The notes under the pieces: generated by a model | Database searches by the model: none | Told to the model about the DNA's origin: nothing | The model's input: the letters and a program-made list of their open reading frames with translations, nothing else | Shown: positions 1,751-16,824 of the stretch, in pieces | Layout of the letters: each line of letters opens with the position of its first letter | How positions within the stretch are numbered: position 1 is the stretch's first letter | Program-made: the position numbers and the translations under genes | IMG/VR virus record: IMGVR_UViG_3300009481_000119 | Span: 1 to 22,437 of that record | DNA: 22,437 nucleotides | Reading direction: 5' to 3' (one strand) | Source: a virus

Positions 1751-4142
1751 TTAATTTTTGCATTTGTATGTTGTTTCTTTGTGCAGCTAGTTGAGCAGTT
1801 TGTTGCAGCTTAGCTGCGTCTATCATAGATTTCTGTTCAAGCTTTGCCATGTCAAGCTCAGTTTTAGCTTGTTTAGCCATCGCATCAGCCATAACTCTTT
1901 GTCTTTCTATATCTATTTCTTCTTTCTTTAAATCAACCAATGGATCAGATCCTTTACCTCCCTCTAGGTATTCTTGCTCCTCTGCAACTAGTTGACCCAT
2001 AATCTCAGATTGCACCTGAGCTATTTGTTCTTGTATCAAATTATTAATTTGTATTTGCACCACGTCAGGAACTTGACCTCCAAATTGATTTGCAAGTTGT
2101 TCTAATTTTTCTCTATTTTTTTCCATAACATTTTTGACAGAGAGTTGTGATACATGTTCCAAAACATGAGAAGTAATATTGACTAAAACGTCTGGTATTG
2201 TTCTAACTAAGACAGAAGACATAAATGCCCTATGTGTTTCAATGTGTGCTACATGATCTTGATCTGGAAAAGCTTTTGCAACTTTTTTATTTAAAAGTTC
2301 AGCATTTTCTATCACAGGATCTTTTGGCATCGGTCTTGCTGGTGGAGGCAAAATTGCATCAATGTTTTGTATGCCAAGTGCTTGATACATTCTTCTATAA
2401 GCCTCATAAGTATTGTGAATTTGTGGATTAGTTTGTGCTAATTGTAACTGTGCTTGAGCCATTTGTATTCTTTGTGACATAGAAAAAATACTAGGATCTG
2501 ATACAGGAATGATATCTACACGATTATCAAAATCTGTTTGTTTAATAAATCTTTGTCCACCTGGAATATTGTAAGGATATTCTGGAGGCAGATATAATTG
2601 AAAAATTCTAGCAAGTAATTTAAACTCAGTTTTTTGTGCGTAATGACATCTTTTGTGGATAGCACTCATAACTTTAGTGCCTTGTTCAATCATTGCCATT
2701 GTAGTCCCTACAGGATTAGCATTATTAGAATCTGCTATTTTCGCATCAGCAACAGCTGCAAATCTTTTACCTGCATCTACACAAAAACCTAAAAGCTGCA
2801 TTAAAGTTTGACTAGGTTCTTTGTAAGGCAAAGGAACAAAATTTTGTCTTAGGTCTCCTCCTGGTGCATCCACGTCTCTAAATTCACCTGGTTGTAATGG
2901 GTTGTCGTCATCACGAATTCTAAGTCCTCTAGCTTTGAAACCTGCTGGTAAATTAGAAAGTGTGCCCGCATCGATAAGTTGACGAAGCGCAGAGGTAGCC
3001 GTTCTGGATAAACCACCGAGCATGTGAATAAGACCAAAACCATAAAAGCCAAGACCTGGCAAAAAACGATAGTGTACAAAGTATTGTATCTTTTTCTTCT
3101 TTGGATCTTCTTGTCTATAGTTACGTCTAATGGATAAAACTTTTCTAGAACCTTCATCAATAGTAACAATGTAAGGAAGTTTAACACCAGTAGGCATATT
3201 GTTCAAACCTAGATCTTCAAAACCAGGTATGTCTAAATCACAATGCATTTCTAACAAAGTACATTGATCGTTATATTGATTGTCGTTTGGTGTTACACCA
3301 TCAATCTTATCGTACTTTTCTTGTATTGAATCTTGTTTATTTATAACATCTAATTCAACGTCTCTATAAAAACCACTTACTTGACTTTTTCTTACATCAT
3401 TTTTATTTTGTTTTAGTACGTGAGTTATTCTAGGCGCAGTCTCTAAATCAGTAGAATGATACGGCACTACTAAATCCTCTACAGGAATAAATTTTGCTAC
3501 TGCTCTATCTAGGTTAGAATCATAATAAATTTTTTTAAATGCAGATCCTGCTAATGCTAGGAAGAATAACATTTGATCCATATCAGAATCATACTCCTCC
3601 ATTACATCTGTAATTTGATAGTTCATAAATTCACGAACTCTTTTTGCTTGTTCTTCTACTTGAGGATTTTCAGCACCTACAATATTACATTTTACTGGAC
3701 CTCCTGCTGGTAGCAATTCTTTGTAAGCTTGTGCTTGAAACTGTGTAACTGATTCTGCTAACAATGGATGTGTAACACCACTAGCGCCCTGAAATGGTTG
3801 AGATCTATCTTCATATTTAAATCCTAATAGATCTAGACCTTGAGTGTATCCATGTTCCCAATCACCTCTTGTTTCTTTGTCATTAAGATAATCTGACATT
3901 AAATCAGATGAAATTTTTTCTAGTTCTGTTTCATCTATAAAATCTGCTAAGTTGTCATCGAAACCTGGACCTCCAGTCATTTGAGGTTGACCAAACAATG
4001 CTCCGCCATCTTGTAACATTTGCACGTCGCTCTGTTGTCCTGTGTTTACATCAACTTCAACAGTTCCTCCTGCATACTGATCAACACGCGGCAGTTCTTC
4101 AACCGGTGGATTGATTGGATTAATTCGTTTATCTATTGCCAT
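1731..4142 (-). CDS. Portal protein
   Basis: 803 residues. The protein has an acidic N-terminal region, then the conserved block at 115-147 ([21 protein letters not shown]) seen in large podovirus-type portal proteins, a central mixed region, and a Gln/Lys/Glu-rich C-terminal coiled coil (about 690-803) that could form the barrel or tail contacts. The portal is the dodecameric ring at one capsid vertex through which terminase drives DNA. The start overlaps the TAA of the upstream 671-residue gene by one base. Context (TerL two genes upstream in the operon) supports the assignment. The length is at the upper end for portals and includes the coiled-coil extension. Confidence 0.85.
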
Positions 4143-6157
4143 TACACGCTCTTCATGAATATTTCGATGTCAATTAGGGGATCACCCATGTCATCTTTTG
4201 TTTTACCACCCTTTTTAAATTGTGGCAAACCAATCTTTTTAAAGAGCTCTAAGTCAAAGCCCTCTGCTCTTAAATCGATATACGGCATATTAATTAATAT
4301 TAGGTCTCTATCTGCTCCACCGACTCTTACATGATTTTTTAATCCTGGAAAATTTTCTATAGCCTGAACATATCTAGATGAGGTAGCCTCAGAATAATCA
4401 TCACCAGGTCTTCTACTAAATTTGTATGTTCCATCTCTTTTTACTTGTAATTGAACTGATTCTATTTGCTTTTCATTAAGACCTAAAGCTTTACCTCTTT
4501 TAGTAATATCTTTGTTAATATCTTTAATAAATTTATCTATTCTACCATCATATATAGTTTTGAATCCTTTATATGTATCTGAATTAGCATCGCCTGCATT
4601 CTCATAAACAGCAACAACATCTGCTGGAGACCATCCTAAATATGCATCACCATCAGCAATAGCTTTCTCTAAATTATCTTTTACTACTTGTTTAATCCAA
4701 TATTGTGCACCACCTGAAAAAGGATAAAAATTATCACTAGCAGTTTCATAAGATTCAGTAGAACCCTCTGGTGGTTGAGATCCAGGAAACTTTATGTCCG
4801 TGCTTTTTATTTTACCATCAAAGAGATCTGTTTGAAGTTCCATCATAACAGTTCCTTTTTGATCATTAGCATAATTTATTAATTTAGCAGATCTAGAAAA
4901 AGCAAAATCATGACCTACTGACGGATGACTACCTTCATGCTGCGAAAGTTTTGAAGGCTGATCATACTCAGGTTTAAATGTGTGTGATAGTATCTGGTAA
5001 TTTTCAGATCTTAAATTAGGAAAAGCAATAGACATATGCTCGTTAGTAAATTGATTGTTACGTAAAGTTTCTGTTATGTTACTAATTGAATTTAATATTT
5101 CATTATTTTGTCTAGTTGCATTAATTGTAGCAGAATCTAGATTAGGATATTCACTCATTAATGTTTCGGTCATCTCAGGTATCTTACCGAGCGCAGCTTC
5201 TGCATCTTCTCTATTAGTAGCTTTTTGCATTTCTTTTAGTTGATCTGTAACTAAATTACGATACTGATCCATGAATTGACCTAGTGGTCCTGGACGGAAA
5301 ACCATATTCATGTTTTCTAATCGTGTAATTTCTGTTCTTAGATTTTGTGGAAGTAATTCTTGATCTTCTCCTAATTTTTTAGCTGATCCTTCTGCGTAAC
5401 CAAAAGCGATTTGATTTGGTCCAGATTGTAGCAATGTTACTAATTCTGATGCAGTGTACTTATCTTTATCCGAGCCACTAGCGATCATGTTATTTAAATA
5501 ACCCATTTGACCAGAATCTCTTAATTCTAAAGTCAAACCTTTTTGAGGATCCGAAAGTTCATTACTCCATTGATCAAGGGTTTTCTTTTCGTTACCTGAA
5601 TAATTTGCTTTTATATAATCTTCTGTTTTACTAAATCTTTTGTTTATAGATTTATCGCCAATATCTATCTCATCTATGTTTTCAATCATCTTTGTTGGAA
5701 CTAAGGCTTTAGATTTTTTCTTATCTCCCATTGTTAAAATAAAATCATCCGCGGTTTTTGGCTCGGGTATAGGAGTAACATTACTTGAATCAATTTTTGG
5801 TTGTTCTACAGTAATATTAGCATCATCTAAAAGACCTTTAGGTTCTGGAAGAGGTGTTATTAATGGATCGTTTTTTACAGGCACAGGTTTTAATCCTGTG
5901 TTTTTTAATCTCTCAGCTTCCTCTTCTTGTCGTTTTCTAATTTCTTCTTCACTTGGTGCAAACACTTTACCTGAAGGAGTGTCGATCATAGGACTCACAG
6001 CTGTGGCTCCCATAGCTAGTATCGGTAACAGATCTCTTAATGCACCTATCTGATCACTTTGTAGATTTGGCTTTTGTATTTGTGGTAAAATATCTAAAGC
6101 ACTAGGATCATCTAGTACACTGGCTGCCCCTGCTTGAAACTTTTTCTTTTTAGCCAT
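4142..6157 (-). CDS. Large phage protein with possible polyvalent-protein (LPD-like) domain
   Basis: 671 residues. The N-terminus is basic and Pro-rich and looks disordered (1-140). The middle (about 170-370) is helical and charged. From about 415 to 560 a pattern appears that resembles the large polyvalent protein-associated domain whose hallmark is 'FxWSR ... EIQSDW ... PF ... GW': here HDFAFSR (416-422), ELQTD (440-444), YPF (478-480), LGWS (507-510) and YKGFKTIYD (529-537). The C-terminus ends in GLPQFKKGG, a motif common in marine phage virion proteins. Its position between TerL and portal suggests a virion or co-injected protein. This LPD match is pattern-based, with Thr in place of the usual Ser and no Trp after it. 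Function is otherwise unknown. Confidence 0.75.
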   Translation of the reverse strand: MAKKKKFQAGAASVLDDPSALDILPQIQKPNLQSDQIGALRDLLPILAMGATAVSPMIDTPSGKVFAPSEEEIRKRQEEEAERLKNTGLKPVPVKNDPLITPLPEPKGLLDDANITVEQPKIDSSNVTPIPEPKTADDFILTMGDKKKSKALVPTKMIENIDEIDIGDKSINKRFSKTEDYIKANYSGNEKKTLDQWSNELSDPQKGLTLELRDSGQMGYLNNMIASGSDKDKYTASELVTLLQSGPNQIAFGYAEGSAKKLGEDQELLPQNLRTEITRLENMNMVFRPGPLGQFMDQYRNLVTDQLKEMQKATNREDAEAALGKIPEMTETLMSEYPNLDSATINATRQNNEILNSISNITETLRNNQFTNEHMSIAFPNLRSENYQILSHTFKPEYDQPSKLSQHEGSHPSVGHDFAFSRSAKLINYANDQKGTVMMELQTDLFDGKIKSTDIKFPGSQPPEGSTESYETASDNFYPFSGGAQYWIKQVVKDNLEKAIADGDAYLGWSPADVVAVYENAGDANSDTYKGFKTIYDGRIDKFIKDINKDITKRGKALGLNEKQIESVQLQVKRDGTYKFSRRPGDDYSEATSSRYVQAIENFPGLKNHVRVGGADRDLILINMPYIDLRAEGFDLELFKKIGLPQFKKGGKTKDDMGDPLIDIEIFMKSV

Positions 6158-6549
6158 TAGCTAAGTCTAGCTTTTCTAAAGCCTCTTTTAGCTGCGCCAG
6201 TTCCACGGACACCGGTTCGCGAACCGTCTTTCGCTTTCTTAATTTTAGCTATTGCAGTTCTTACGCCACCTTTAGCAGTAACCTTTTGTTTAGCTGCTGT
6301 TTTCATTGGCTCAGTTTTATTGCCATCTTTATCGAGATCTAAGAAATCTGGTTTAGATCCTCCGCCGTCTGCAAGCCCTTCACCAGTTTGCTTTGGGTTC
6401 TTTTCTTTCCCACTTGCTATTTTCTTTTTAAGTTTTTCTTTATCTTCTGCTGACATGTTAGCAATTTTCTTTTCAGCTTCACCTAAAGGATCACTTATCA
6501 TTCTATTAGATCCCTCTAAAAATTTTGCAAAGTCTTCTACTAGTCCCAT
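6157..6549 (-). CDS. DLDxDGN-motif basic phage protein
   Basis: 130 residues. The N-terminal 50 residues are helical and Lys-rich. At 68-82 lies DFLDLDKDGNKTEPM, an EF-hand-like calcium loop (D71, D73, D75, N77) that lacks the usual Glu at loop position 12 and is a recurring motif in marine phage proteins. The C-terminus is strongly basic and Gly/Arg-rich (VRGTGAAKRGFRKARLS). A GGGGG Shine-Dalgarno precedes the ATG by a few bases, and the stop overlaps the next ATG by one base. A small head or DNA-associated protein is possible; no firm function. Confidence 0.75.
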   Translation of the reverse strand: MGLVEDFAKFLEGSNRMISDPLGEAEKKIANMSAEDKEKLKKKIASGKEKNPKQTGEGLADGGGSKPDFLDLDKDGNKTEPMKTAAKQKVTAKGGVRTAIAKIKKAKDGSRTGVRGTGAAKRGFRKARLS

Positions 6550-6557
6550 ATTGCCCC

Positions 6558-8021
6558 CTAATAATATTCTCGCATCTGTAAAACACTTGGCTCATCCTCG
6601 TAATCCTCTGGATGCGATATAAAGTTTCCTTGTCTAAATCTTAACAAAGCTTGAGTGGTGGAGTCAACATAATCGTCGTGTTCACCAAAAGGAAAAGCAG
6701 CACATTCCTCAATAACCTCTTGCGCCCATCTCTCATCAGGATACCAGATCTGTCCAGCCTCAAAAAGAGGTGCCACGGCGTTTACTCTTGAATGTTTATC
6801 ATTTCCTTTGCTCGGTGTAAAGTTAACAACTGGAATTCCTGATTGTCTTAATTCGTACGTTAATGGTAATCCTGAAGCTTTCGCCTCCACTATGATGCTT
6901 TCCGGTTCCCAATACTTGTATTGCTCATGCGCTATACGTTTTAACTCTGGAAACTCCCATCTACCTCTTTTCGCATCTAGCAGGATGCACGCCGGCGCTT
7001 TCATTTCATCACGGTAAAAGACTCCCCATGTAGTGATAGCGGAATAGTCCGCTGTTTCTTTTTTAGAGTATGCTGTATCGTAGCTTTGAATTACATGCTG
7101 GAGGGGAGGGGGATCGGCGTACTCGTACAACTTCCACCAGTCACGTTTTATAATGGAACCTTCTTCTGATACGGGTTGCTGTTGCCACTGTGCTTGCCAT
7201 TTTTGCTCGGACAACGAAGCGCGGACCGATAACAGTTCGTCCGCTTTCCAATATTCAGGCCACATAGGATTCTGTGTTTCAGGAAAGATAGCTGGGAATT
7301 CTATAATATCCCATTGATCCGCTTTTATTTCTTTTTGTGCATTGACTAATTTACCTGTAAGATCTTTTACTGACCACCGTGTCATAACCACGACAATAGC
7401 CCCGCCAGGTTGTAAACGCTGTCGAGGGCCACTAGTATACCACTCGTAAGCATTATCCATAGCAGTTTGGCTAAGTGCGTCTTGCTCAGAATGAGGGTCG
7501 TCAATAATGAGCAAATCAGCACCACGACCAGTAATGGCACCCCCAACACCAGCAGCAAAGTATTCGCCACCCATGTTGGTTTCCCAACGGCCCGCGGCCT
7601 TCGAGTCTTGTGATAGTGATATGTTTCTAAAGACATTTTTATATTCCTCCTGGTCCATTAAGTTACGCACCTTTCTACCAAATCTATATGACAATTCTGC
7701 TGTGTGCGTCGTTTGAATAATTTTTAATTTAGGATTGTGGCCCATCATCCATGCAGGAAATAAGAAAGAAGCAAATTCAGATTTTGTATGACGTGGTGGC
7801 ATGTTAACGATTAAACGTTTCAGCTTACCGTCTTTGATCATGTTAAATTTTTCTGCAATCTTTCTATGATGGTATCCACCAATAAATTCTGGCCATACTG
7901 CTCTAACAAAAGAAAGATAGTCATCTCTTGAATGTTCAGCTGTATCTATTTCTGCTTTACGTAATTCTAATTTTTTAATTAGATCTGCAGCTTCATCACT
8001 AGTTACTTGATCTAGATCCAT
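6558..8021 (-). CDS. terL: Terminase large subunit (TerL)
   Basis: 487 residues. The packaging motor has an N-terminal ATPase and a C-terminal RNase H-like nuclease. ATPase motifs are Walker A PPRHTKS (75-81), Walker B LLIIDDPH (170-177) and coupling motif VVMTRW (211-216). Nuclease acidic residues are D315 in SYDTAYS, E379 in IIVEAKASG and the cluster HDDYVDS (448-454). It cuts concatemeric DNA and pumps it through the portal. No clear Shine-Dalgarno precedes the ATG; instead an extended -10 promoter ends about ten bases upstream, suggesting a nearly leaderless message. The gene lies about 3 kb from its small subunit, with accessory genes between. Confidence 0.95.
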   Translation of the reverse strand: MDLDQVTSDEAADLIKKLELRKAEIDTAEHSRDDYLSFVRAVWPEFIGGYHHRKIAEKFNMIKDGKLKRLIVNMPPRHTKSEFASFLFPAWMMGHNPKLKIIQTTHTAELSYRFGRKVRNLMDQEEYKNVFRNISLSQDSKAAGRWETNMGGEYFAAGVGGAITGRGADLLIIDDPHSEQDALSQTAMDNAYEWYTSGPRQRLQPGGAIVVVMTRWSVKDLTGKLVNAQKEIKADQWDIIEFPAIFPETQNPMWPEYWKADELLSVRASLSEQKWQAQWQQQPVSEEGSIIKRDWWKLYEYADPPPLQHVIQSYDTAYSKKETADYSAITTWGVFYRDEMKAPACILLDAKRGRWEFPELKRIAHEQYKYWEPESIIVEAKASGLPLTYELRQSGIPVVNFTPSKGNDKHSRVNAVAPLFEAGQIWYPDERWAQEVIEECAAFPFGEHDDYVDSTTQALLRFRQGNFISHPEDYEDEPSVLQMREYY

Positions 8022-8030
8022 TTTCGTGAT

Positions 8031-8058
8031 GTTATAGCATATAAATTGTTTGTGTAAA
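8031..8058 (-). promoter_or_regulatory. Sigma70-type extended -10 promoter for TerL
   Basis: On the minus strand: -35 TTTACA (8058-8053), 16-base spacer ending in TGC, and -10 TATAAC (8036-8031), i.e. an extended -10 (TGnTATAAC). The predicted start of transcription is near 8024, only three or so bases before the ATG at 8021, in agreement with the missing Shine-Dalgarno. Sequence match only. Confidence 0.5.
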
Positions 8059-8083
8059 ACTTACACGTAGCGTCGCTGTATAA

Positions 8084-8129
8084 ATCTATAGGGGGGAGAG
8101 GGGGGTGGCGTCGTTTTAAAGGATTTTTA
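8084..8129 (-). repeat. 46-bp bipartite repeat, unit U0 (degenerate)
   Basis: Plus-strand reading: ATCTA (8084-8088), 17 variable bases that are almost all G here, then TGGCGTCGTTTTAA and GGATTTTTA. It shows the same length and order as the six better copies, with several substitutions in the right half. It lies 63 bases upstream of the TerL ATG. Confidence 0.55.
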
Positions 8130-8233
8130 TCTGCCAAAATCGGTTTGGGACTCTAGATGTAGTATAAAATGTATATGGATTACTATATGTAGTCGAGGGC
8201 TTCCCTGGATTTACTGGCTGGGCTGCCAGGAAG

Positions 8234-8257
8234 AGCAGGTGGTGACAACCACCTGCT
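8234..8257. other. Perfect 10-bp hairpin next to an A/T run
   Basis: AGCAGGTGGT and ACCACCTGCT flank a GACA loop. Nine A follow on the plus strand, so in the minus-strand transcript the U-run precedes the hairpin; this is the wrong order for an intrinsic terminator. It lies 13 bases after the stop of the 84-residue gene and could stabilise the 3' end of its mRNA or bind a protein. Confidence 0.6.
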
Positions 8258-8270
8258 GCAAAAAAAAATG

Positions 8271-8522
8271 TTAATGATTTATACCAAACTTGCTAGCCAA
8301 ATCTCGAGCTAACTCTATTCCAAAATCTTTTATTCTTGGATCGTTTTGGTTTCGCATTATGAATTCAAATATCTTTCCATCTAAATAGTTAGCTAACAAC
8401 TGCCAATCAATTCGTTGATCTTGAGCATTAGATAAGAAAGTGTTTTGATCTTGTTGGTTAGTAACACCACGATTTGTGGTGTTAGCTAATTCTCTTAATT
8501 GACTTACTAAATCGTTAGGCAT
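8271..8522 (-). CDS. Hypothetical protein, 83 residues
   Basis: Not recognised. It has a polar, Asn/Gln-rich N-terminal half and a helical C-terminal half (LANYLDGKIFEFIMRN, FGIELARDLASKFG). The ATG at 8522 overlaps the stop of the upstream gene by 8 bases. A TTG six bases upstream is an alternative start that sits better relative to AGGAAG. It is probably co-transcribed with the 120-residue gene upstream. The Asn/Gln content is higher than in neighbouring genes. Confidence 0.65.
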   Translation of the reverse strand: MPNDLVSQLRELANTTNRGVTNQQDQNTFLSNAQDQRIDWQLLANYLDGKIFEFIMRNQNDPRIKDFGIELARDLASKFGINH

Positions 8523-8877
8523 TTGCAATTCTTCCTAACTGTTCTTCAATTAAACTTTCTTGTTCTTTGTTATTAGTAACATTCTTAATTGAATAATAAG
8601 TCGATTGTTTAACAGGCATATCAACTTTCTTTTTAACAAAGAAATCTCTAACTTGTTGCATGTCTGTTAAAGTTCTAGTGTGTTCACTAACTGAAAAAAC
8701 ATTATTGTTATGATTGAAAATATAATTTTCTTTTTCAGTTAGGCCTTTATTTTCGATAAGTTCGTAAACTTGTTTTTGTAATTGTTTACATTTTTTATCT
8801 GCTTGGTTTTTAATATCTTGAAACATACGATACTCAATGAGTAACTTAATTTCAAAGTTAGTTAGTTTTTTAGCCAT
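8515..8877 (-). CDS. Hypothetical helical protein, 120 residues
   Basis: Not recognised. The N-terminal 45 residues form a charged, coiled-coil-like helix (IEYRMFQDIKNQADKKCKQLQ). A beta-hairpin-like stretch (FNHNNNVFSVSEHTRTLTD) and a second helix follow. This order recalls the rightward 195-residue protein at 15236, but no firm relation can be claimed. The ATG has a good AAAGGAG Shine-Dalgarno. It is preceded by a promoter/operator-like site (8933-8960) and repeat unit U1, so it appears independently controlled. Confidence 0.7.
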   Translation of the reverse strand: MAKKLTNFEIKLLIEYRMFQDIKNQADKKCKQLQKQVYELIENKGLTEKENYIFNHNNNVFSVSEHTRTLTDMQQVRDFFVKKKVDMPVKQSTYYSIKNVTNNKEQESLIEEQLGRIANA

Positions 8878-8932
8878 TGATAACTCCTTTAGTTTTTCAT
8901 TTAAGGCTACATTACTAATTAATGCATTTACT

Positions 8933-8960
8933 AATTTACTTATAAAAAGTTATAATTCAA
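8933..8960 (-). promoter_or_regulatory. Promoter with TTATAA-N4-TTATAA operator (copy 1)
   Basis: Minus strand: -35-like TTGAAT (8960-8955), then operator TTATAACTTTTTATAA (8955-8940), then a weak -10 TAAATT (8938-8933) at 16-base spacing. The upstream flank GATCATTTTTTT is shared with copy 2. It lies 56 bases before the ATG at 8877. Confidence 0.5.
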
Positions 8961-9094
8961 GAAAATAATGAAAAAAAATGATCTCATAATTGATCGAGAA
9001 TGAGGTTATAGCAACCTTGCCTTATGATTGTACCTCGGAAATTTTTTACTTTTCCCCATTTTCCACGCAACTCGGAAGGGCAACGCTATCCTAA

Positions 9095-9140
9095 ATCTAT
9101 ATTAAAAAAACTTTTTCGGCGAGCTTTTAACGTATTTTTG
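9095..9140 (-). repeat. 46-bp bipartite repeat, unit U1
   Basis: Plus-strand reading: ATCTA, 17 variable bases (A/T-rich here), CGGCGAGCTTTTAA and CGTATTTTTG. It abuts the hairpin at 9140-9164, just downstream of the stop of the gene at 9174-9536. It occupies part of the 8878-9173 spacer, which otherwise contains only promoter copy 1 and no convincing gene. Confidence 0.75.
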
Positions 9141-9164
9141 GTGGGCGAGAGTACATCGCCCACC
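9140..9164. other. Perfect 9-bp hairpin downstream of a minus-strand gene
   Basis: GGTGGGCGA and TCGCCCACC flank a seven-base loop. On the minus strand it lies nine bases after the stop codon (9174) and is followed by AAAAATACG, the start of repeat U1, not by T residues. It is therefore not a standard intrinsic terminator; it may be an mRNA 3'-end structure. Confidence 0.6.
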
Positions 9165-9173
9165 TTACAAAGA

Positions 9174-9536
9174 TTAGTTCAATGTTTCACGAGACTTTTC
9201 GAATTCGGCTTTCATCTTATTAACCTCTTCTTCACTCATCGGTTTTAGTTGAACAGGCTCACAGCCCAAAGCCGATGTAACTGCATTGACACCGACCTCC
9301 AACAACTCTTTAAATGACAAAGTTGGTTTATCACAATCTACCTCATTGTTTTTAATCTCCGAGATAAATGCATGGATTAAAGCCAATCGAAAATTCCGAT
9401 CGGACATGTATGGCTCTAATTCAGGGTGTTCTTTTTTTAGAACATCTTCCCTAAAAGAGTCCAAAGATTTACCAATACCTTTCGCAATAAGCAAAGTAAT
9501 CTTGGTTAAATCGCTTCGTTCTTTTTCGTTTAACAT
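9174..9536 (-). CDS. Hypothetical helical protein, 120 residues
   Basis: Not recognised. It is largely helical and acidic (LNEKERSDLTKITLLIAKGIGKSL at the N-terminus in two segments; MSEEEVNKMKAEFEK at the C-terminus). I chose the ATG at 9536 because AAAGGAG precedes it; in-frame codons extend 36 bases further upstream but without a Shine-Dalgarno. Promoter copy 2 lies 35 bases upstream, and a TGTTATAACA palindrome (9555-9564) sits in the leader. The gene therefore seems to be its own transcription unit. Confidence 0.7.
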   Translation of the reverse strand: MLNEKERSDLTKITLLIAKGIGKSLDSFREDVLKKEHPELEPYMSDRNFRLALIHAFISEIKNNEVDCDKPTLSFKELLEVGVNAVTSALGCEPVQLKPMSEEEVNKMKAEFEKSRETLN

Positions 9537-9570
9537 ATGTACTCCTTTGTTTAATGTTATAACAGAGACC

Positions 9571-9598
9571 ACAATACCTATAATAAGTTATAACTCAA
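9571..9598 (-). promoter_or_regulatory. Promoter with TTATAA-N4-TTATAA operator (copy 2)
   Basis: Minus strand: TTGAGT (9598-9593), operator TTATAACTTATTATAG (9593-9578), weak -10 TATTGT (9576-9571) with 16-base spacing. The GATCATTTTTTT flank is shared with copy 1. The TGA stop of the small membrane-protein ORF lies inside the -35. Confidence 0.5.
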
Positions 9599-9708
9599 GA
9601 AAAAAATGATCTAATCCAAAAAAAAGTGGCGAATAAGATGGCAAACAATAATGCAATGAATGGGTTGCGACCAACCAAGACCAGAGTAAAGAATGTCACA
9701 CAAAACAT
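9595..9708 (-). CDS. Small hydrophobic membrane protein (37 residues)
   Basis: The reading frame encodes MFCVTFFTLVLVG, then a polar RNP turn, then FIALLFAILFATFFWI and RSFFS, i.e. one long or two short membrane helices. A GTG six bases upstream (9714) is an alternative start; GGAG lies 8 bases before that GTG. Repeat unit U2 ends 38 bases upstream of the ATG. The strongly hydrophobic composition is unlike the shadow frames here. No homologue is recalled, so function is unknown. Confidence 0.5.
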   Translation of the reverse strand: MFCVTFFTLVLVGRNPFIALLFAILFATFFWIRSFFS

Positions 9709-9745
9709 CAACACGCAGACAACTCCAGAGGGGGACTGGCACTAA

Positions 9746-9791
9746 ATCTAATGGGATCCTGTGCTTTCGGCGAGCTTCTGCCGTATTTTTG
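9746..9791 (-). repeat. 46-bp bipartite repeat, unit U2
   Basis: Plus-strand reading: ATCTA, 17 variable bases, CGGCGAGCTTCTG, C, CGTATTTTTG. This is the best-formed copy. CGGC and GCCG inside it could also pair as a short stem before the T-run. It is flanked by GACTGG and a GTCCCC/GGGGAC-type inverted pair. Confidence 0.8.
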
Positions 9792-9826
9792 TCCCCACGA
9801 CAGTCCCTGGCTGCCTTGTGCAAGAG

Positions 9827-9872
9827 ATCTATAGCAGCGCAGCGCGCGCGGCGAGCTTCTGTCATATTTTTG
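9827..9872 (-). repeat. 46-bp bipartite repeat, unit U3
   Basis: Plus-strand reading: ATCTA, 17 variable bases (alternating GC here, AGCGCGCG), CGGCGAGCTTCTG, T, CATATTTTTG. It begins three bases beyond the TGA of the 105-residue gene and lies 81 bases from U2 in the same orientation. A GCTGCC box lies 17 bases before ATCTA. Confidence 0.8.
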
Positions 9873-9874
9873 CC

Positions 9875-10192
9875 TCATCCTGCTACCTCAATCATCTCCG
9901 CCATTCTCTGCCAAGCGTGTTCATCCTTGTTCACCATTACATTAGCGCCATCTCCCCAATCCAGAAACCAGTATTCTAAACGGTGAATGCTTTTGTCCAG
10001 GTTAACATACGCGCGCAGCTCATCGCTGGGCCCGCCCCAAGAGAATTGCCACCTGTAATAACCTTCCAATTGGTCGTCCCAGGTCCCCGGTTCAACATAA
10101 TTAAAACCCAAGTAATCAAACTCAGGGTCTTTCAGGTCCTTCTGGCGACCCTTCCACCTTTCTTCTACTACGTCTTTACATTTTTCGTTCAT
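9875..10192 (-). CDS. Hypothetical protein, 105 residues, Trp/Tyr-rich
   Basis: I place the start at the ATG at 10192 because AGGAGG precedes it at ideal spacing; the frame is open further upstream but only through promoter and repeat DNA. The protein has a charged N-terminus (MNEKCKDVVEERWKGRQKDL), then a beta-rich core with YYRWQFSWGGPSDELRAYV and LEYWFLDWGDGA, then a short helix. I recall similar 'SWGGPSDE ... YWFLDW' small proteins in phages and plasmids without known function. It has its own promoter/operator (10256-10284) and is followed by repeats U3 and U2. Confidence 0.75.
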   Translation of the reverse strand: MNEKCKDVVEERWKGRQKDLKDPEFDYLGFNYVEPGTWDDQLEGYYRWQFSWGGPSDELRAYVNLDKSIHRLEYWFLDWGDGANVMVNKDEHAWQRMAEMIEVAG

Positions 10193-10255
10193 GACTCCTC
10201 CTGTGGGCCGGCGTCCTAGGAACTTCCAAACGGATTCGGTACCGACCCTGCTTAA

Positions 10256-10284
10256 TATATAGTTATAACTAGTTATAATGTCAA
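10256..10284 (-). promoter_or_regulatory. Strong sigma70 promoter with palindromic operator (copy 3)
   Basis: Minus strand: consensus -35 TTGACA (10284-10279), exact 17-base spacer, -10 TATATA (10261-10256). The spacer is almost entirely the perfect 16-bp palindrome TTATAACTAGTTATAA (10278-10263). A repressor bound there would block RNA polymerase. It drives the 105-residue gene, 64 bases downstream. Confidence 0.75.
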
Positions 10285-10339
10285 GTCTTTCTAAAAATTT
10301 ATCAGAGGGAACTGGCGTGGTGTGCCTGGTGCACATGTA

Positions 10340-10385
10340 ATCTAATGAGAGCTTCTGTTTTCGGCGAGCTGCAAGCGTATTTTTG
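10340..10385 (-). repeat. 46-bp bipartite repeat, unit U4
   Basis: Plus-strand reading: ATCTA, 17 variable bases that include GAGAGCTTCTG (a partial second copy of the right box), CGGCGAGCTGCAAG, CGTATTTTTG. It lies upstream of promoter copy 3. Confidence 0.75.
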
Positions 10386-10507
10386 AGCTGCAGCAGAGCT
10401 GCCTGGGAACGTCAGGTGAAGGATCTTCAGTTTTTACCTGTTTTCCGCCTAAAAATGTAAAGAAACTCTGGTTCCGTGACTGGTGTGGAGCTGCCAGGAA
10501 GGTGAAG

Positions 10508-10553
10508 ATCTATAATAGTGGCGTAGAAACGGCGTATTTCTGCGGTATTTTCG
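10508..10553 (-). repeat. 46-bp bipartite repeat, unit U5
   Basis: Plus-strand reading: ATCTA, 17 variable bases, CGGCGTATTTCTG, C, GGTATTTTCG. The right box is more diverged, but length and spacing are exact. GCTGCCAGGAAG lies 18 bases before ATCTA. Confidence 0.65.
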
Positions 10554-10597
10554 GCACACGGGGACGGGAGAAGGTGCTGCCTGGGACGCTGCGCCGG

Positions 10598-10643
10598 ATC
10601 CTATAGTAATCTATTAGCTTGGCGAGGACTTGGCGTATTTTTC
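10598..10643 (-). repeat. 46-bp bipartite repeat, unit U6 (overlaps nuclease gene end)
   Basis: Plus-strand reading: ATCCT in place of ATCTA, 17 bases, TGGCGAGGACTTGG, CGTATTTTTC. It covers the last 14 codons and the stop of the nuclease gene at 10601, so that protein's C-terminal tail is encoded by repeat DNA. GCTGCCTGGGA lies 22 bases before it. Confidence 0.65.
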
Positions 10644-11038
10644 ACGTATTTTACAAACTCAATCAGTTGGTTTTCGTTCCATGGTTCGTCAATAATCATG
10701 TCGGGTTCGAGTTTCGCACCTAATTTAGCCAGCTCCGAGCCCCTTTGTCCTGTATATATTCGCGCGCCCCTCTGTAAGAGGGCCTTAACGCAGATGAAAG
10801 ACATACCACCATTCTTGTAGTAGTGATAATGCCATGCAATTTGCTTAGATGTGATCGCAACTTTGTTATGTTTTGTTAACTTTAATTCAAGCCAAAAGGT
10901 ATAGCCAAGTAGATCTTTTGGATCTGCAAAAAACCCATGTAAATCAGGAATTCCTGGAGATGTTTTAGACTCTACTCGAGACCACTTAACAATGTTACTG
11001 TTTTTTAAAATTCTTTGACTTAGATTTCTTTCTCTCAT
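10601..11038 (-). CDS. PD-(D/E)XK nuclease (VRR-NUC / resolvase-like)
   Basis: 145 residues. The nuclease signature is clear: E23 (RVESKT), D32 in GIPDLHGF, E51-x-K53 in WLELKLT, followed by Q66 in SKQIAWH, the order expected for VRR-NUC and Holliday-resolvase-like PD-(D/E)XK folds. The likely role is cutting branched or structured DNA during recombination, or processing packaging intermediates. The start lies 44 bases inside the terminase small subunit gene in another frame, so the two are coupled. The tail (VKNTPSPRQANRLL) is encoded by repeat unit U6 and is probably an add-on outside the fold. Confidence 0.8.
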   Translation of the reverse strand: MRERNLSQRILKNSNIVKWSRVESKTSPGIPDLHGFFADPKDLLGYTFWLELKLTKHNKVAITSKQIAWHYHYYKNGGMSFICVKALLQRGARIYTGQRGSELAKLGAKLEPDMIIDEPWNENQLIEFVKYVKNTPSPRQANRLL

Positions 11039-11510
11039 TCTTTTCTTTTACTTCAAAAGCAACTGAATCAACTACTTTTGGAAAACGTTTTTTAAGTTCT
11101 TCAAGTCTTCTTTCAACTTCTTGTTTAGGCATGTTATCAATTGATCCTGTCAAAATTTCTTTTCTGTCAACATACAAACCTGCTGCCTTTCCACGTGAAA
11201 TTTCTGCACTAACAGCTGCAGTGTAATTACCTTTTTCTTCTGCAGATAAAGAGAGCTCTTTTAATCTTCTCATGTGTCGATTGTAATTTACGTGATATTT
11301 TTTATGTTGTTCATTGCGTAACATTAAAATGTAATCATACACCTTTGGATACTTTTCTCTGTTTTGTAATTGACTGGCAATCTGCCTTGCTGACTTTTCA
11401 GAGTAACCAGCTTCAATAGCGCACTCCGTTGCTGTCCACTCACCATCGTGTAATATCAACAATTCACAAAATTTTCTTTGTTGTGGCGTAATATCTATTA
11501 GTTCAGTCAT
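10995..11510 (-). CDS. terS: Terminase small subunit (TerS)
   Basis: 171 residues. The N-terminal 50 residues have the small-terminase helix-turn-helix pattern: TPQQRKFCELLI, ATECAIEAGYSEKSARQIASQL. The middle is helical and could oligomerise. The C-terminus is very basic (KEKNERKKSKSKNFKKQ). TerS recognises the packaging site and loads TerL. The gene is separated from terL by about 3 kb of accessory genes, whereas the two are usually adjacent. Immediately upstream lies the GTTACCTG iteron array, a candidate binding site. Confidence 0.8.
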   Translation of the reverse strand: MTELIDITPQQRKFCELLILHDGEWTATECAIEAGYSEKSARQIASQLQNREKYPKVYDYILMLRNEQHKKYHVNYNRHMRRLKELSLSAEEKGNYTAAVSAEISRGKAAGLYVDRKEILTGSIDNMPKQEVERRLEELKKRFPKVVDSVAFEVKEKNERKKSKSKNFKKQ

Positions 11511-11574
11511 TATAAGAGCAATTTTTCAAATTTATAATTAATAGCAAAAAACTTCCGCGCGCGATACTAGAAGT

Positions 11575-11675
11575 GTTACCTGTTACCTGAAACAAAAGAG
11601 GATAGGTAACAGTTGAGGTAACAGTTTTTTCCTTGTTTTCTGCATGTTTCATAAGAATGTTACCTGTGTTACCTG
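11575..11675. repeat. Six-copy GTTACCTG iteron array
   Basis: In the 221-base gap between terS and the next gene there are six copies: GTTACCTG at 11575-11582, 11582-11589, 11659-11666 and 11668-11675 on the plus strand, and the inverse AGGTAACAG at 11604-11612 and 11616-11624. The order is two forward, two inverted, two forward. The rest of the gap is AT-rich with no gene seen. Such arrays serve as replication origins, packaging sites or operators; which one is not determinable here. Confidence 0.75.
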
Positions 11676-11731
11676 AGATTCTGACAAAAATTTTAAAAAA
11701 ATTATTTTCAAAATATTTACTTATATAGGGA

Positions 11732-11944
11732 TTAAAAGAATTTTGGATCAGATTCTAATTTTGTTGTCGATAAAATCTTATCCAAAGCCTTGATTCCCTG
11801 CTGTAATACATAATCCCATTCACTTTCTTTATATGTTCTGTCGAAGTCTTCATTTGCAAACCTCACATGTATAGATCCACAGTCTGGACACTTACGCGTG
11901 CTTTTGACTGGACTTTCCGGTAAATGTAATAACGTTGTTACCAT
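11732..11944 (-). CDS. Small CxxC (zinc-ribbon-like) protein
   Basis: 70 residues. It has a single zinc knuckle CPDCG at about residues 19-23 within RKCPDCGSIHVRF, which looks like half of a zinc ribbon; a partner pair of cysteines is absent, so metal binding may need dimerisation. The C-terminal half is helical. The start overlaps the upstream gene by 53 bases, with AAGGA seven bases before the ATG. Unknown function. Confidence 0.6.
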   Translation of the reverse strand: MVTTLLHLPESPVKSTRKCPDCGSIHVRFANEDFDRTYKESEWDYVLQQGIKALDKILSTTKLESDPKFF

Positions 11945-12116
11945 GCCGTTCCTTCATCTTTCTGTTAATGTGTTCTGCTGCAGCTTCTTGATCTGTGAAT
12001 TTAAATTCACTCAATAGGAGGGAACACCTGGAGGAAAAATCATTAGGTGTTAAGCCCTCCAATAAAAAGTCAATCATACTATTTTGAGCATTTAAGATAA
12101 TATTCTTGCTTTTCAT
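11892..12116 (-). CDS. Hypothetical helical protein, 74 residues
   Basis: Not recognised. It is mostly helical (MIDFLLEGL, DQEAAAEHINRKMKERHG), with single Cys and several Ser. The start ATG has GGAGG somewhat far upstream (11 bases). It overlaps the next gene by 53 bases out of frame. A weak promoter-like site lies at 12163-12191, and a tiny eight-codon ORF (MDDPQWRL) just upstream in the leader could act as a leader peptide, which is speculative. Confidence 0.6.
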   Translation of the reverse strand: MKSKNIILNAQNSMIDFLLEGLTPNDFSSRCSLLLSEFKFTDQEAAAEHINRKMKERHGNNVITFTGKSSQKHA

Positions 12117-12162
12117 AACTGTTTACAGCCTCCATTGCGGATCGTCCATTAACAGCCCTAAT

Positions 12163-12191
12163 TGTATACCCCAAATAATGCAAGTACACAA
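12163..12191 (-). promoter_or_regulatory. Weak promoter-like site
   Basis: Minus strand: TTGTGT (12191-12186), 17-base spacer, TATACA (12168-12163). Only TTG of the -35 matches well. The context (140-base gap before the 74-residue gene) makes it plausible, but the match is weak. Confidence 0.3.
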
Positions 12192-12203
12192 CTAATTATA
12201 GGT

Positions 12204-12237
12204 GAGGGCGATTGAAAAAGAATAAAACTTCGCCCTC
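12204..12237. other. 8-bp stem with 18-base loop
   Basis: GAGGGCGA and TCGCCCTC enclose an A-rich loop. It lies about 20 bases after the stop of the zinc-finger gene at 12257. Neither strand has a T-run after the stem, so it is not a typical terminator. The loop and right arm contain ATAAAACTTCGCC, also present in the primase leader hairpin at 16775. Confidence 0.45.
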
Positions 12238-12256
12238 GTGTAGATTATATCAGAGT

Positions 12257-12490
12257 TTAATTTGTTCCACCAGTAACTATGTGTGGTCCACGGGCCTCGA
12301 ATATATGGCCATTATCTGTTGATTTACACCTAGCGTACACGTACCCTTGATTGTTACATTGCTTACAATCCACGGGCAACGGATCGGCATTCAATGTTAC
12401 CACCACATAACCATTGCCCTTGCACTGCATACAAGTTTCTTCTTTTACATAAAATTCTTTATAAACATCTCTATTAGTTTCTTTTTCCAT
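12257..12490 (-). CDS. DnaJ-type zinc-finger small protein
   Basis: 77 residues. Two CxxC motifs, CMQCKGNGYV and CKQCNNQGYV, match one CxxCxGxG zinc module of the DnaJ cysteine-rich domain, though the second has Asn-Gln in place of the first Gly position. There is no J-domain. I chose the ATG at 12490, which overlaps the upstream TAA by one base (TAATG) as elsewhere in this operon; an ATG 12 bases upstream is an alternative. Such free-standing zinc modules are common in phages; the role is unknown. Confidence 0.7.
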   Translation of the reverse strand: MEKETNRDVYKEFYVKEETCMQCKGNGYVVVTLNADPLPVDCKQCNNQGYVYARCKSTDNGHIFEARGPHIVTGGTN

Positions 12491-12711
12491 TATCTCACCC
12501 ATGGTTTATAATCATATCTTCTGGCTAAAATGTTAGCTATTCTTGATTCTCTTATTCGCTCTTTCATCTGGTCAATGGTCCGCGGGTCGCGCATACAGAT
12601 TGGATGTAATCTTTCCCACTCTCTCACTAACCTCGTGCGGAGCGTCGCAGAGCGACTAGTATCTAATTTATCGCGCCTGACTTCATCTGATCCTGCTCCT
12701 TTTTGAACCAT
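12490..12711 (-). CDS. Basic hypothetical protein, 73 residues
   Basis: Not recognised. It is very Arg-rich (LRTRLVREWERLHP, MKERIRESRIANILARRY) and probably helical, so nucleic-acid binding is possible. It overlaps the preceding gene by 49 bases in another frame and the next by one. The long overlap and high Arg content deserve mild caution, but the coupling pattern fits the operon. Confidence 0.55.
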   Translation of the reverse strand: MVQKGAGSDEVRRDKLDTSRSATLRTRLVREWERLHPICMRDPRTIDQMKERIRESRIANILARRYDYKPWVR

Positions 12712-12908
12712 GCTTCCATCTCCTCTTTTGATTTTAATAGTTTAACGTACTCATCACCGTTTTCCGCGGTTACGATTTTGATCATACCGTCTTTTTGTGC
12801 ATGATCTAATGTAAAACGAAAATACTTTTCCATGTGATAAGCAAGGGCCTTACTGCCGTGCTTTTTTGTTAAGTAATCTAAAACTTTACTTTTTGTTTTT
12901 TCGTTCAT
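12663..12908 (-). CDS. Hypothetical protein, 81 residues
   Basis: Not recognised. Lys/Glu-rich, with a helical N-terminus (MNEKTKSKVLDYLTKKHG), a short beta segment (MIKIVTAENGDEYVKLL) and a helical tail (KEEMEAWFKKEQDQ). It overlaps its neighbours by 23 and 49 bases. Shine-Dalgarno is weak (GAAAAAG). Confidence 0.65.
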   Translation of the reverse strand: MNEKTKSKVLDYLTKKHGSKALAYHMEKYFRFTLDHAQKDGMIKIVTAENGDEYVKLLKSKEEMEAWFKKEQDQMKSGAIN

Positions 12909-13188
12909 CTTTTTCTGCTTTCTCTAACAATTGTTCTATCAAACCAGTAACTGACTGAAACCTTTTCTTTGCCAGTGTCTTCAATCGTGCACGAGTTTCA
13001 TGTCTCACTGCAACTGTCGTGAATGGGTTTTTTAATTCTTCTGCTTTCATTCTGTTTTTCCTTGCTTTCCAGTTTTTTAAATTTTCTTTCGCACTCTTGC
13101 CAATACCTAACTTAACAAGATGCGATGCTGCTTTTTCATCCATACCTTTCATTAACTGATTGTATGCTTCTATTTTCTTACGGGACAT
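12886..13188 (-). CDS. Ribbon-helix-helix candidate DNA-binding protein
   Basis: 100 residues. The N-terminal half is Lys-rich and helical. From about 56 the pattern is a short strand (TTVAVRHET), helix (RARLKTLAKK), turn and helix (SVTGLIEQLLEKAEKDE), which is the ribbon-helix-helix (Arc/CopG-type) DNA-binding fold. Members bind palindromes as dimers, making it a candidate for the TTATAACTNNTTATAA operators; that link is an inference. The ATG has AAAGGAG about ten bases upstream, and the start overlaps the preceding gene by 11 bases. Confidence 0.65.
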   Translation of the reverse strand: MSRKKIEAYNQLMKGMDEKAASHLVKLGIGKSAKENLKNWKARKNRMKAEELKNPFTTVAVRHETRARLKTLAKKRFQSVTGLIEQLLEKAEKDERKNKK

Positions 13189-13378
13189 ATTTGCTCAACT
13201 CCTTTAATTTATAATAATATATCCATCTCATCTCTACGTCTTCCGCCGTTATCATAGCATAAACTAAATTATCATGCCTTCTTTCAAATAGTTCTGGCGT
13301 CATTGGTAGTGGTCTATAATCAACAGTGTTACCTGCATGATCAGAATGAGTTTCTGTTTGCCAACCTATAACAACCAT
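13178..13378 (-). CDS. Hypothetical protein, 66 residues
   Basis: Not recognised. The N-terminus is His/Asp-rich (TETHSDHAGN) and is followed by PLPMTPELFERRHDNLVYAM and an aromatic helix (RWIYYYKLKEL). It overlaps the small membrane protein upstream by 13 bases, with a GAGGTGG Shine-Dalgarno. It contains one stray GTTACCTG (13328-13335) within coding sequence. Confidence 0.65.
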   Translation of the reverse strand: MVVIGWQTETHSDHAGNTVDYRPLPMTPELFERRHDNLVYAMITAEDVEMRWIYYYKLKELSKYVP

Positions 13379-13497
13379 TCAAAACCACCTCTCTCCCAAA
13401 CAATGAAAACACCAAATAAAATTGCTATCAATCCAACATGTCTGTAGAGGAGTAACCCCATCGCTATAATCGTGCCTAGTATTAAGTACATAGTCAT
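13366..13497 (-). CDS. Small membrane protein, 43 residues
   Basis: The ATG at 13497 has a perfect AAAGGAG Shine-Dalgarno at good spacing. The protein has two hydrophobic stretches, MYLILGTIIAMGLLLY and GLIAILFGVFIVW, split by RHV, then ERGGFEWLL. A hairpin of two membrane helices or a single long one is likely. Function is unknown; small membrane proteins of this kind often act in superinfection exclusion or host interference, but nothing here shows it. Confidence 0.65.
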   Translation of the reverse strand: MTMYLILGTIIAMGLLLYRHVGLIAILFGVFIVWERGGFEWLL

Positions 13498-13533
13498 GAT
13501 GACTCCTTTCTGAGGTAACCCCTCTATAAGTAC

Positions 13534-13549
13534 ATATAACTATTTATAA
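13534..13549. promoter_or_regulatory. TTATAACTNNTTATAA-type operator (15 of 16 matching)
   Basis: Plus strand ATATAACTATTTATAA, one base from the consensus of the three promoter copies. It overlaps the stop codon of the helicase gene and lies 37 bases before the small membrane protein ATG. No clear -35/-10 pair surrounds it. Confidence 0.45.
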
Positions 13550-13950
13550 GATTTTTTCAACTGTTTTATCCAATCTTTATATTGTTCGTTAAGAACTTTA
13601 TGAGAAATCTTGGTTTTGCTTATTAAATTAGTAATGATATGCTCATCGACTGTGCCTGCACATTGTAGATCTATGTAAGTGCACTTATTGTTTTGACCCA
13701 TTCTATGAATTCTATCTTCTGACTGAACTCTAACTTCAAGATCATAATTGTTAGAATAATAAATAATTGTATCTGACACAACTAGATTTAATCCATAACC
13801 ACCTGTCTTAGGATTAGCCACCAAATATTGTAGATCTGACTTTGGATCTTTAAATCTTTCTATAATGTTTGTTCTCTCCTGGTCCTTAGTGCCTCCATAA
13901 AAAGCTTCTACAACAGCAAAGCTTTCATACTTCTTCCTTATTGCTTTCAC
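13540..13950 (-). CDS. SNF2-like helicase, C-terminal half (after in-frame TGA)
   Basis: 136 residues from the GTG at 13950. Homology-like sequence continues upstream in the same frame to 14010 (KVIIWATYRHNIERI, helicase motif IV region), immediately after the TGA that ends the N-terminal half. Helicase C-terminal domain motifs are present: PKTGGYGLNL (motif V, 47-56) and QSEDRIHRMGQ (motif VI, 76-86). The piece cannot hydrolyse ATP by itself. There is no Shine-Dalgarno before the GTG, so independent translation is doubtful. Together with 14011-15030 it makes one 496-codon reading frame. Either a nonsense mutation, a sequencing error or readthrough explains it. Confidence 0.7.
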   Translation of the reverse strand: MKAIRKKYESFAVVEAFYGGTKDQERTNIIERFKDPKSDLQYLVANPKTGGYGLNLVVSDTIIYYSNNYDLEVRVQSEDRIHRMGQNNKCTYIDLQCAGTVDEHIITNLISKTKISHKVLNEQYKDWIKQLKKSYK

Positions 13951-14010
13951 AATTCTTTCAATATTGTGCCTATATGTTGCCCAAATTATTACTTTGCCAT
14001 CAACTTCATC

Positions 14011-15030
14011 TCAACAATCTAGTAAAGATTCTAGTCTAGGTATCATACCTTTATCATCATGTAAATCTACAGTCATACCCTCATCAGTTGTTAAGAAGCC
14101 ACAAGCGATCTGATGTAATCGCATCATCATAGTAAGCTTTGCCACAGCTGTGGTTTCTTCACCTGTATCTAATCTTGCTATTTGCATTGCTTGCATTTGT
14201 AAATATGCATCTTCTTGTTTTTTATTCATCGATACTTCTCTTGTAAGATATGTCTTATCAGGTAAATCCAAACAATCTTGTTTACGAACTCTAAAAGAAA
14301 AGTTTTGTAATTTATTATTTAGCTCATGTATGTTTTGATATCCTAAAACTTTTTGATAAGTGTAATCGGCAGCGTAACCTGTTTCCATTACACAATACCT
14401 ATTTTTATATGACCAGTAACTTGGTTGACCTAAATGATCTAAATCAAGAAACGCACATTGCGAAAATAGATCTAACGGTGAACGGGTCACGGGCGATCCA
14501 GTCAAGATCCTACGGAACTGGGCCATCGCACCAAGTTTTAATATAGCTTTAGTTCTAGCAGCTTTAGGATTTTTAATTGTTGTAGACTCATCAATAGCAA
14601 ACATTGATGGATATAACTGTAAAAATTTATCAGCTATCTTTTTACCCTTGACACTTGAGAATGCCTCAACGTTCATTAAAAAAATTTTAAAATTATCTAC
14701 ATTATTATAGAAAAAATCTTTTCTACGTCGCATTTCTTTTTTTGTATCTGTGGGATCCCAATCATATACATCATAGTTTTCTACAAGTGGTGACATGTGA
14801 GCTGGCAATTGTTCTACTTTCCAGTTACGATAAACACCTTTAGGTGCTACGACAATTGCGCCTTTAATCTTCTTTGTTAAATATAATAAGCAAAGATTAT
14901 CAATTAAAACCTTTGACTTGCCAGTGCCCATCTCCATAAAATAAGCAAAAGTTTTCTTATTCCAGGATAACTTTAATGCCTTATGCTGATGCTCGAACGG
15001 CTTCGTTCGAAAACGATACGATAACTCCAT
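14011..15030 (-). CDS. SNF2-like DEAD/DEAH helicase, N-terminal half (ends at in-frame TGA)
   Basis: 339 residues. ATPase core motifs: Q-like FEHQHKALKL (12-21), Walker A MGTGKS (34-39), motif Ia APKGVYRNW (62-70), motif II DEST followed by KNP (147-155), motif III TGSP (177-180). This is the ATPase lobe of a SWI2/SNF2-type superfamily 2 helicase, widespread in marine phages and probably used in replication or recombination. I chose the ATG at 15030, preceded by AAAGGA; a TTG at 15054 is less likely. The TGA at 14011-14013 (codon 340, between LLDC and DEVDG) interrupts the frame just before the C-terminal lobe, which follows in the same frame. Confidence 0.8.
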   Translation of the reverse strand: MELSYRFRTKPFEHQHKALKLSWNKKTFAYFMEMGTGKSKVLIDNLCLLYLTKKIKGAIVVAPKGVYRNWKVEQLPAHMSPLVENYDVYDWDPTDTKKEMRRRKDFFYNNVDNFKIFLMNVEAFSSVKGKKIADKFLQLYPSMFAIDESTTIKNPKAARTKAILKLGAMAQFRRILTGSPVTRSPLDLFSQCAFLDLDHLGQPSYWSYKNRYCVMETGYAADYTYQKVLGYQNIHELNNKLQNFSFRVRKQDCLDLPDKTYLTREVSMNKKQEDAYLQMQAMQIARLDTGEETTAVAKLTMMMRLHQIACGFLTTDEGMTVDLHDDKGMIPRLESLLDC

Positions 15031-15140
15031 TTGTCCTTTATACTTGAAAAGCAAAGAAAAAACAAATAAATGTAAAAAGACTTGAGATTGTTCACTTTAT
15101 GATGACTCCTTATAAATCTCAGGTTAAGGCTAAAAGAATT

Positions 15141-15235: not shown

Positions 15236-15823
15236 ATGCCAAAAGATTTAGATTACATTTTAAACACGCTTGAAGAAAAAGCTATTGATCAAAAAATAAA
15301 AGACATCGACACAGAGGGTCTATCTGACATTGGTGCGTTGTGTAAGAAACTTGTTGAAGCAAGAAAAGAAAAAGCAATGCACGAAAAAGCTGTAGAAGAC
15401 ACCACGGAAGAAATACAAAGTTTAAGTGAAACTATTGGAACTTATCTCAAAGAAAAAAATTTAACATCATTCAAACTTACTGATGGAAGTTCTGTAGAGT
15501 ACAATGAAAAACTTAGAGCAAATATTAAAAGAGAAAACATTAGAGAAGCTTATGAGTTCATACGGACAGAGGGCGCCGGAGATCTAATTAAGAACGAAAT
15601 TAAAATGCAGTTCGGCAAAGGACAAGACCAGGACGCAGAACAATTCAAAACATTTTTAAAAGATAAAGGTTTAGTGCCCATGGAGAAACAGGGCATTGCA
15701 TGGAATACTCTCGATGCATGGTGCAGAGAGACTATAGAAAAATACGCAGCACAAGGAAAAGCTTTTCCAGAAGAAGTGTTTGGTATCTTTCGTTATCACG
15801 ACGTTAAAATAAAAAATAAATAG
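15236..15823 (+). CDS. Hypothetical coiled-coil protein, first gene of replication operon
   Basis: 195 residues with a good Shine-Dalgarno (TAGGAG) before the ATG. Residues 30-75 form a strongly charged coiled coil (VEARKEKAMHEKAVEDTTEE). A beta hairpin (FKLTDGSSVEYNEKL), further helices and a C-terminal segment with WNTLDAWCRE follow. I do not recognise the family with confidence; similar proteins precede ssDNA-binding proteins in marine phages. Position as first gene, ten bases before the SSB-like gene, suggests a replication or host-nuclease-inhibitor role, which is inference. Confidence 0.8.
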   Translation: MPKDLDYILNTLEEKAIDQKIKDIDTEGLSDIGALCKKLVEARKEKAMHEKAVEDTTEEIQSLSETIGTYLKEKNLTSFKLTDGSSVEYNEKLRANIKRENIREAYEFIRTEGAGDLIKNEIKMQFGKGQDQDAEQFKTFLKDKGLVPMEKQGIAWNTLDAWCRETIEKYAAQGKAFPEEVFGIFRYHDVKIKNK

Positions 15824-15832
15824 GAGGTCATC

Positions 15833-16684: not shown

Positions 16685-16824
16685 GGTACAGGTTCGTAAC
16701 AATGAATGGGAAAACTATGATGACCTCATGTGTACCGTTGGTTGTTGCGCGTGGGTGTGTTGAGCTTTGTTCGTATAAAACTTCGCCGTTTTATTGCTCA
16801 GCACACACCACTTACATGAGGTCA
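16685..16824 (+). promoter_or_regulatory. Structured 5' leader sequestering the primase ribosome-binding site
   Basis: The 142-base gap before the primase ATG (16827) contains nested perfect or near-perfect stems. P1 is TGACCTCATGT (16721-16731) with ACATGAGGTCA (16814-16824), whose right arm holds the GAGG Shine-Dalgarno. P2 is GTGTGTTGAGC (16755-16765) with GCTCAGCACAC (16796-16806), one G-T. P3 is ATAAAAC (16775-16781) with GTTTTAT (16788-16794) and a TTCGCC loop. An alternative pairing GGTACA (16685-16690) with TGTACC (16731-16736) competes with or knots P1. It looks like a translational switch; ligand or protein is unknown. Confidence 0.65.

Follow-up and report, generated by a model that had tools for sequence, protein, structure and literature searches.

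Several described systems are relevant here. The middle and late promoters of phages that depend on T4 MotA, P2 Ogr or Mu C form lineage-specific sets, are used by the host RNA polymerase and carry a phage-specific upstream box. Mycobacteriophage stoperators and start-associated sequences are single sites of about 13 bp, short, oriented and repeated between the genes of one phage group. Among bacterial activators, those of class II have sites with their centre at -41.5 (PMC10936776); at such promoters of the CRP/CAP type the site stands over a poor -35 element and the -10 element is present. Promoters of the PhoB/OmpR type and of the SARP family carry two direct repeats, spaced by 11 bp, which replace or overlap the -35 element; in SARP promoters the 3' repeat lies 8 bp from the -10 element and the afs box has its centre at -29.5 (PMC10936776).

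The 46-bp unit described here shares features with each of them. As in CRP/CAP class II promoters, its predicted protein site would lie at -41.5 over a poor -35 with a -10 present; however, the site is a direct repeat whereas theirs is inverted, and activation is a prediction in our case. The two 11-bp-spaced repeats at the -35 position recall PhoB/OmpR-type and SARP promoters, but unlike in the latter there are 18 bp from the end of the repeat to the -10, and the centre is at -41.5. Like the MotA, Ogr and C promoters, the units form a lineage-specific set with a phage-specific upstream box, presumably for the host RNA polymerase; the boxes of those three phages differ from the unit in sequence, length and position. 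The mycobacteriophage elements, proposed in the preliminary description of this DNA as the nearest analogy, seem to fit poorly in architecture, since the unit is bipartite, 46 bp long and has a -10-like half. A literature search found no description of this 46-bp element, and an Rfam search gave no match.

The stretch of DNA analysed here (the window) is a complete IMG/VR record of 22,437 bases. Its terminase shares 60-67% identity with those of 023Pt_psg01 and of two pelagiphages in culture, HTVC027P and HTVC023P, and the phage is therefore of the HTVC023P type (PMC9599517); from this kinship we infer SAR11 as the host. SAR11 is a dominant surface-ocean bacterium, and HTVC023P-type phages are described as widespread and among its most abundant viruses (PMC9599517). 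The close relatives used for comparison are all metagenome-derived contigs, for the most part fragments. The leftward genes of the window run from a helicase (15054) over the small (terS) and large (terL) terminase subunits to the portal protein, and the replication proteins are encoded rightward. The helicase is broken into two ORFs (13540-13950 and 14011-15054) matching consecutive parts of phrog_62, which could reflect a frameshift, an intervening sequence or a sequencing error. The first gene of the late operon is terL, and we presume that the units feed this operon.

The seven units of the preliminary description, all 46 bp long, in one orientation and with a 17-bp spacing, were confirmed. 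A profile trained on 12 non-redundant units from other genomes (TerL at most 91% identical), with the window left out against circularity, recovers exactly these seven with 24.0-36.1 bits, all on the minus strand (Table 1). The only other high-scoring position is a shifted register of the last unit at 10598 (22.6 bits); the next position in the window reaches 7.5 bits, and the best among 200 Markov-shuffled windows 18.3 bits. Sliding the second box by -5 to +5 leaves at most one match above 22 bits in the window, versus eight at the true spacing. Six of the original starts stand. The seventh unit, formerly placed at 10598 with ATCCT, is better read 11 bp away with ATCTA (27.2 bits); the old register is also readable because of a third copy of an 11-bp direct repeat.

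Table 1. Coordinates of the units, terminase genes, proximal elements and candidate regulators in the window.
Feature	Position	Strand	Score or evidence	Remark
terL	6558..8021	-	phrog_38, 2e-111	Terminase large subunit
U1	8084..8129	-	24.0 bits	Degenerate member 5' of terL, C-tract spacer
Proximal element, third copy	8941..8960	-		TTGAA + TTATAACTTTTTATA, before ORF 8515-8877
U2	9095..9140	-	36.1 bits	Predicted start ~210 nt 5' of ATG, ORF 8515-8877
Proximal element, second copy	9579..9598	-		TTGAG + TTATAACTTATTATA, before ORF 9174-9539
U3	9746..9791	-	28.0 bits	Predicted start ~202 nt 5' of ATG, ORF 9174-9539
U4	9827..9872	-	29.7 bits	Tandem with U3
Proximal promoter-like element	10256..10284	-		TTGACA-N17-TATATA with palindrome TTATAACTAGTTATAA, between U5 and its gene
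U5	10340..10385	-	30.6 bits	Predicted start ~140 nt 5' of ATG (10192), ORF 9875-10192
U6	10508..10553	-	25.7 bits	
U7	10609..10654	-	27.2 bits vs 22.6 at 10598	Three tandem 11-bp repeats
terS	10995..11510	-		Terminase small subunit; second border of unit-bearing interval
Second candidate regulator	11892..12116	-	Co-occurrence with motif	74-aa protein
Candidate regulator	12886..13188	-	PHROG profiles	Arc-like ribbon-helix-helix (RHH) domain

The units are restricted to the interval between terS and terL, so that their earlier assignment to every leftward intergenic spacer was too broad: none was found in front of the remaining leftward genes (10995-15054), in positions 1-8021, 3' of terL or by the replication genes. 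Since U7 overlaps the 3' end of ORF 10601-11038, not every unit is strictly intergenic. Relatives down to about 73% TerL identity share a conserved non-coding sequence upstream of terL (8020-8170 in the window), which contains GTTTTACACAAACA and a C-tract (CCCCCACCCC-like) and is a possible cos or pac site. U1 lies within this family-wide conserved region and is kept upstream of terL in relatives; its sequence is degenerate (TGGCGTCG..., C/G-tract spacer) and may derive in part from the conserved, possibly packaging, region. The interval between terS and terL, a usual place for pac or cos sites, together with the conserved non-coding stretch before terL, would suit units that serve as binding sites for TerS or a replication protein and have no promoter role. 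We regard this as very improbable, because TerS or iteron sites would not be expected to show a strict strand bias, irregular distances between units (81-1011 bp in the window), a link to individual gene starts and a -10-like half at a constant 17 bp.

Read on the minus strand, each unit consists of two copies of AAAAATACGCC, 17 bp and TA[GC]AT(T/C), with the 46-bp consensus nAAAAATACGYTRA....TCGCC[A/G] - N15 - [TA]ATA[GC]AT. The long left box had been taken as one site; it is instead a tandem direct repeat of AAAAATACGCC / ARAAnnTCGCC with a period of 11. Among 30 non-redundant units its self-similarity peaks at shift 11 alone (0.47, against 0.09-0.30 at other shifts). The spacer is constant in length, as first described, but some units carry a third repeat copy within its supposedly variable bases. 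When left boxes were sought without requiring a right box in 23 clade sequences, some of them overlapping, 131 were found. A right box followed 8-25 bp away in 108 cases, 103 of them at exactly 15 bp (17 bp to TAGAT). Conserved left boxes without a right box also exist in the clade, as is expected of a binding site able to stand alone.

The best-supported reading is the one suggested at first, a non-canonical promoter that drives leftward transcription, given the strand bias, the site before genes, the 17-bp spacing and a -10-like TAGAT(T) on the appropriate strand. On the basis of the sequence we consider it reasonably probable that the units are activator-dependent, phage-specific promoters from which the host RNA polymerase transcribes towards the late genes. 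TA[GC]AT(T/C) would be the -10, agreeing with four of six consensus positions; TAGAT is followed by T in most units and by C in those at 9827 and 10508, which breaks -10 position 6. The -35 position 17 bp upstream would hold the poor hexamer TCGCC[A/G], which has the spacing of sigma70 promoters but matches only 3-4 of six positions. If TAGATT is the -10, the tandem repeat that stands in place of a good -35 falls at about -52 to -31 with its centre at -41.5, the class II position, beside this weak -35. An activator might bind there as a head-to-tail dimer on one face of the DNA and touch RNA polymerase, and terL and the structural operon would be fed by read-through from the units. The scan for consensus promoters calls none of the units, and both terminator and consensus-promoter scans of the sequence stayed at chance level.

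The recognition could also be brought about by a phage factor that re-targets the host RNA polymerase as an altered sigma, with CGCC as the true -35 and the A-tract as an UP-like element. Few parts of the left box indeed vary as little as CGCC, and 17 bp is the distance of a -35/-10 pair. However, the 11-bp periodicity and the units with three repeats point to a separate repeat-binding protein, and sigma region-2 was unmatched in 13 records, which makes this explanation improbable. The T7-type RNA polymerase profile PF00940 matched none of the 13 records, but no control genome either. The transcriptome paper on HTVC027P lists an RNAP as specific to HTVC022P, the other phage (PMC12753301).

In seven clade genomes the predicted start of the final unit before each interval gene lies 136-214 nt 5' of the RBS/ATG; the leader of ORF 9875-10192 was measured directly from the window sequence. 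Every gene cassette of this interval has one to three units in front of it, which would act as its promoters. They stand before each interval gene even where gene content differs between relatives: this content varies by subclade, with genes for 105 and 121 aa in the window and one 211-aa gene in G001, G003, G012 and G013.

The leaders from the units to the genes are long, which speaks against the promoter reading. A further point against it is that a more canonical repeat, TTGA[CGA]..TTATAACTnnTTATAA, is nearer to the ATG of three window genes than the units are and forms once the full TTGACA-N17-TATATA; the units could then be auxiliary. With its TTGAN-like -35 and the palindrome TTATAACTnnTTATAA, this element looks like an operator-bearing proximal promoter, and in the other subclade a variant of the palindrome stands before the 120-aa gene. 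Promoters in similar positions exist in HTVC027P (TTGACA-N17-TAGGAT) and in the sister group (TTGACT...TGGGACTATATA). At first we took these for orthologues of the units. They lie mostly about 50-60 nt from the start codon, in some cases about 140, and so match the proximal TTATAAC-palindrome element better; the orthologue argument was dropped. Proximal promoter-like elements here and promoters at like places in relatives thus make the 46-bp units an additional, distal layer.

At the exact spacing, 2.9 million viral contigs contained 22 matching stretches, spread over 20 contigs of which most had several matches, and the contigs inspected were members of the clade of the window phage. With one base added to the spacer, as a control for the spacing, 16 stretches were obtained, all at one coding position in one gene of an unrelated phage group with 50-53% GC. 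The 257 Gb of bacterial and archaeal genomes yielded 13 scattered single matches in unrelated phyla and none in SAR11 genomes. Our own estimate of the chance expectation for a pattern of about 18 informative bases is 7-8; the observed number is near to it and the unit is not enriched in cellular genomes. Two observations had been named that would speak against the element, namely random scatter in unrelated genomes and loss of the 17-bp spacing in related phages. Neither enrichment nor clustering was found in the former and the spacing is kept in the latter. Within about 0.5 Mb of related phage genomes the units are confined to the close HTVC023P-type clade and to the interval between terS and terL; sister phages with 67-76% identical TerL lack them.

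Other repeats occur in this interval in relatives. 023Pt_psg01 has five copies of GGGCCCACCC(N)CCCC on one strand (15431-17848, L103), and HTVC027P has arrays of GCTTGnn heptads (16499-17746, L091). The sister phages L063, L077, L027, L058 and L048 carry GC-rich CCATT repeats 5' of terL, followed by TATAGT. The spacing of these repeats is mostly 7 bp; the elements keep no rigid spacing, so that their analogy to the units is no more than suggestive.

If the units are activator-dependent promoters, their regulator is probably encoded by the phage. No homologue of T4 MotA, P2 Ogr or Mu C was recognised among the proteins searched. Two small proteins are candidates by their co-occurrence with the motif, which inside one clade cannot separate a regulator from other clade-specific genes. 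One has a C-terminal RHH domain by profile: Arc-like repressor PHROGs matched in eight of ten orthologues (best 4.6e-5), Pfam RHH matches were weak, and the monomer model is poor (pLDDT 73, pTM 0.33, no strand). All 11 motif-bearing records tested encode it, and diverged relatives of it occur also in phages without the motif. For the 74-aa protein the tally was 11 of 11 records with the motif and 0 of 7 phages without it. Its model consists of three helices, and a structure search gave no PDB match better than E = 2, so that the fold was not recognised.

Arc-like proteins are classically repressors. The presence of the RHH protein in every motif-bearing record tested would also suit promoters of the same -10/-35 geometry in which an early phage repressor, for example this protein, has the repeat as its operator and silences the units until late. 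In favour of repression, the -35 position is covered by the repeat, and in several relatives an orphan repeat without a -10 recurs about 88 bp past the first unit. Yet the unaided TCGCC[A/G] is a weak -35 that leaves little to repress, and activator sites typically have their centre at -41.5, which makes activation likelier than repression; we therefore think repression rather unlikely.

Transcription control in HTVC023P-type phages was left unexplained by the transcriptome study, since none of the early genes of HTVC027P has a known function (PMC12753301). As a tentative and still doubtful generalisation of the activator-dependent promoters, the interval between terS and terL and the late operon of these pelagiphages may be under a lineage-specific set of activator promoters whose specificity is swapped wholesale between sisters: 11-bp repeats of AAAAATACGCC here, whereas the sister phages would use CCATT repeats of about 7 bp with TATAGT after them. 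The activator would then be a small, undescribed and clade-restricted phage protein. With a putative clade-specific promoter set, a clear binding site and two small candidate regulators, the transcription control of these phages becomes a testable question, and the unit sequence provides a handle on promoter activity in marine metatranscriptomes.
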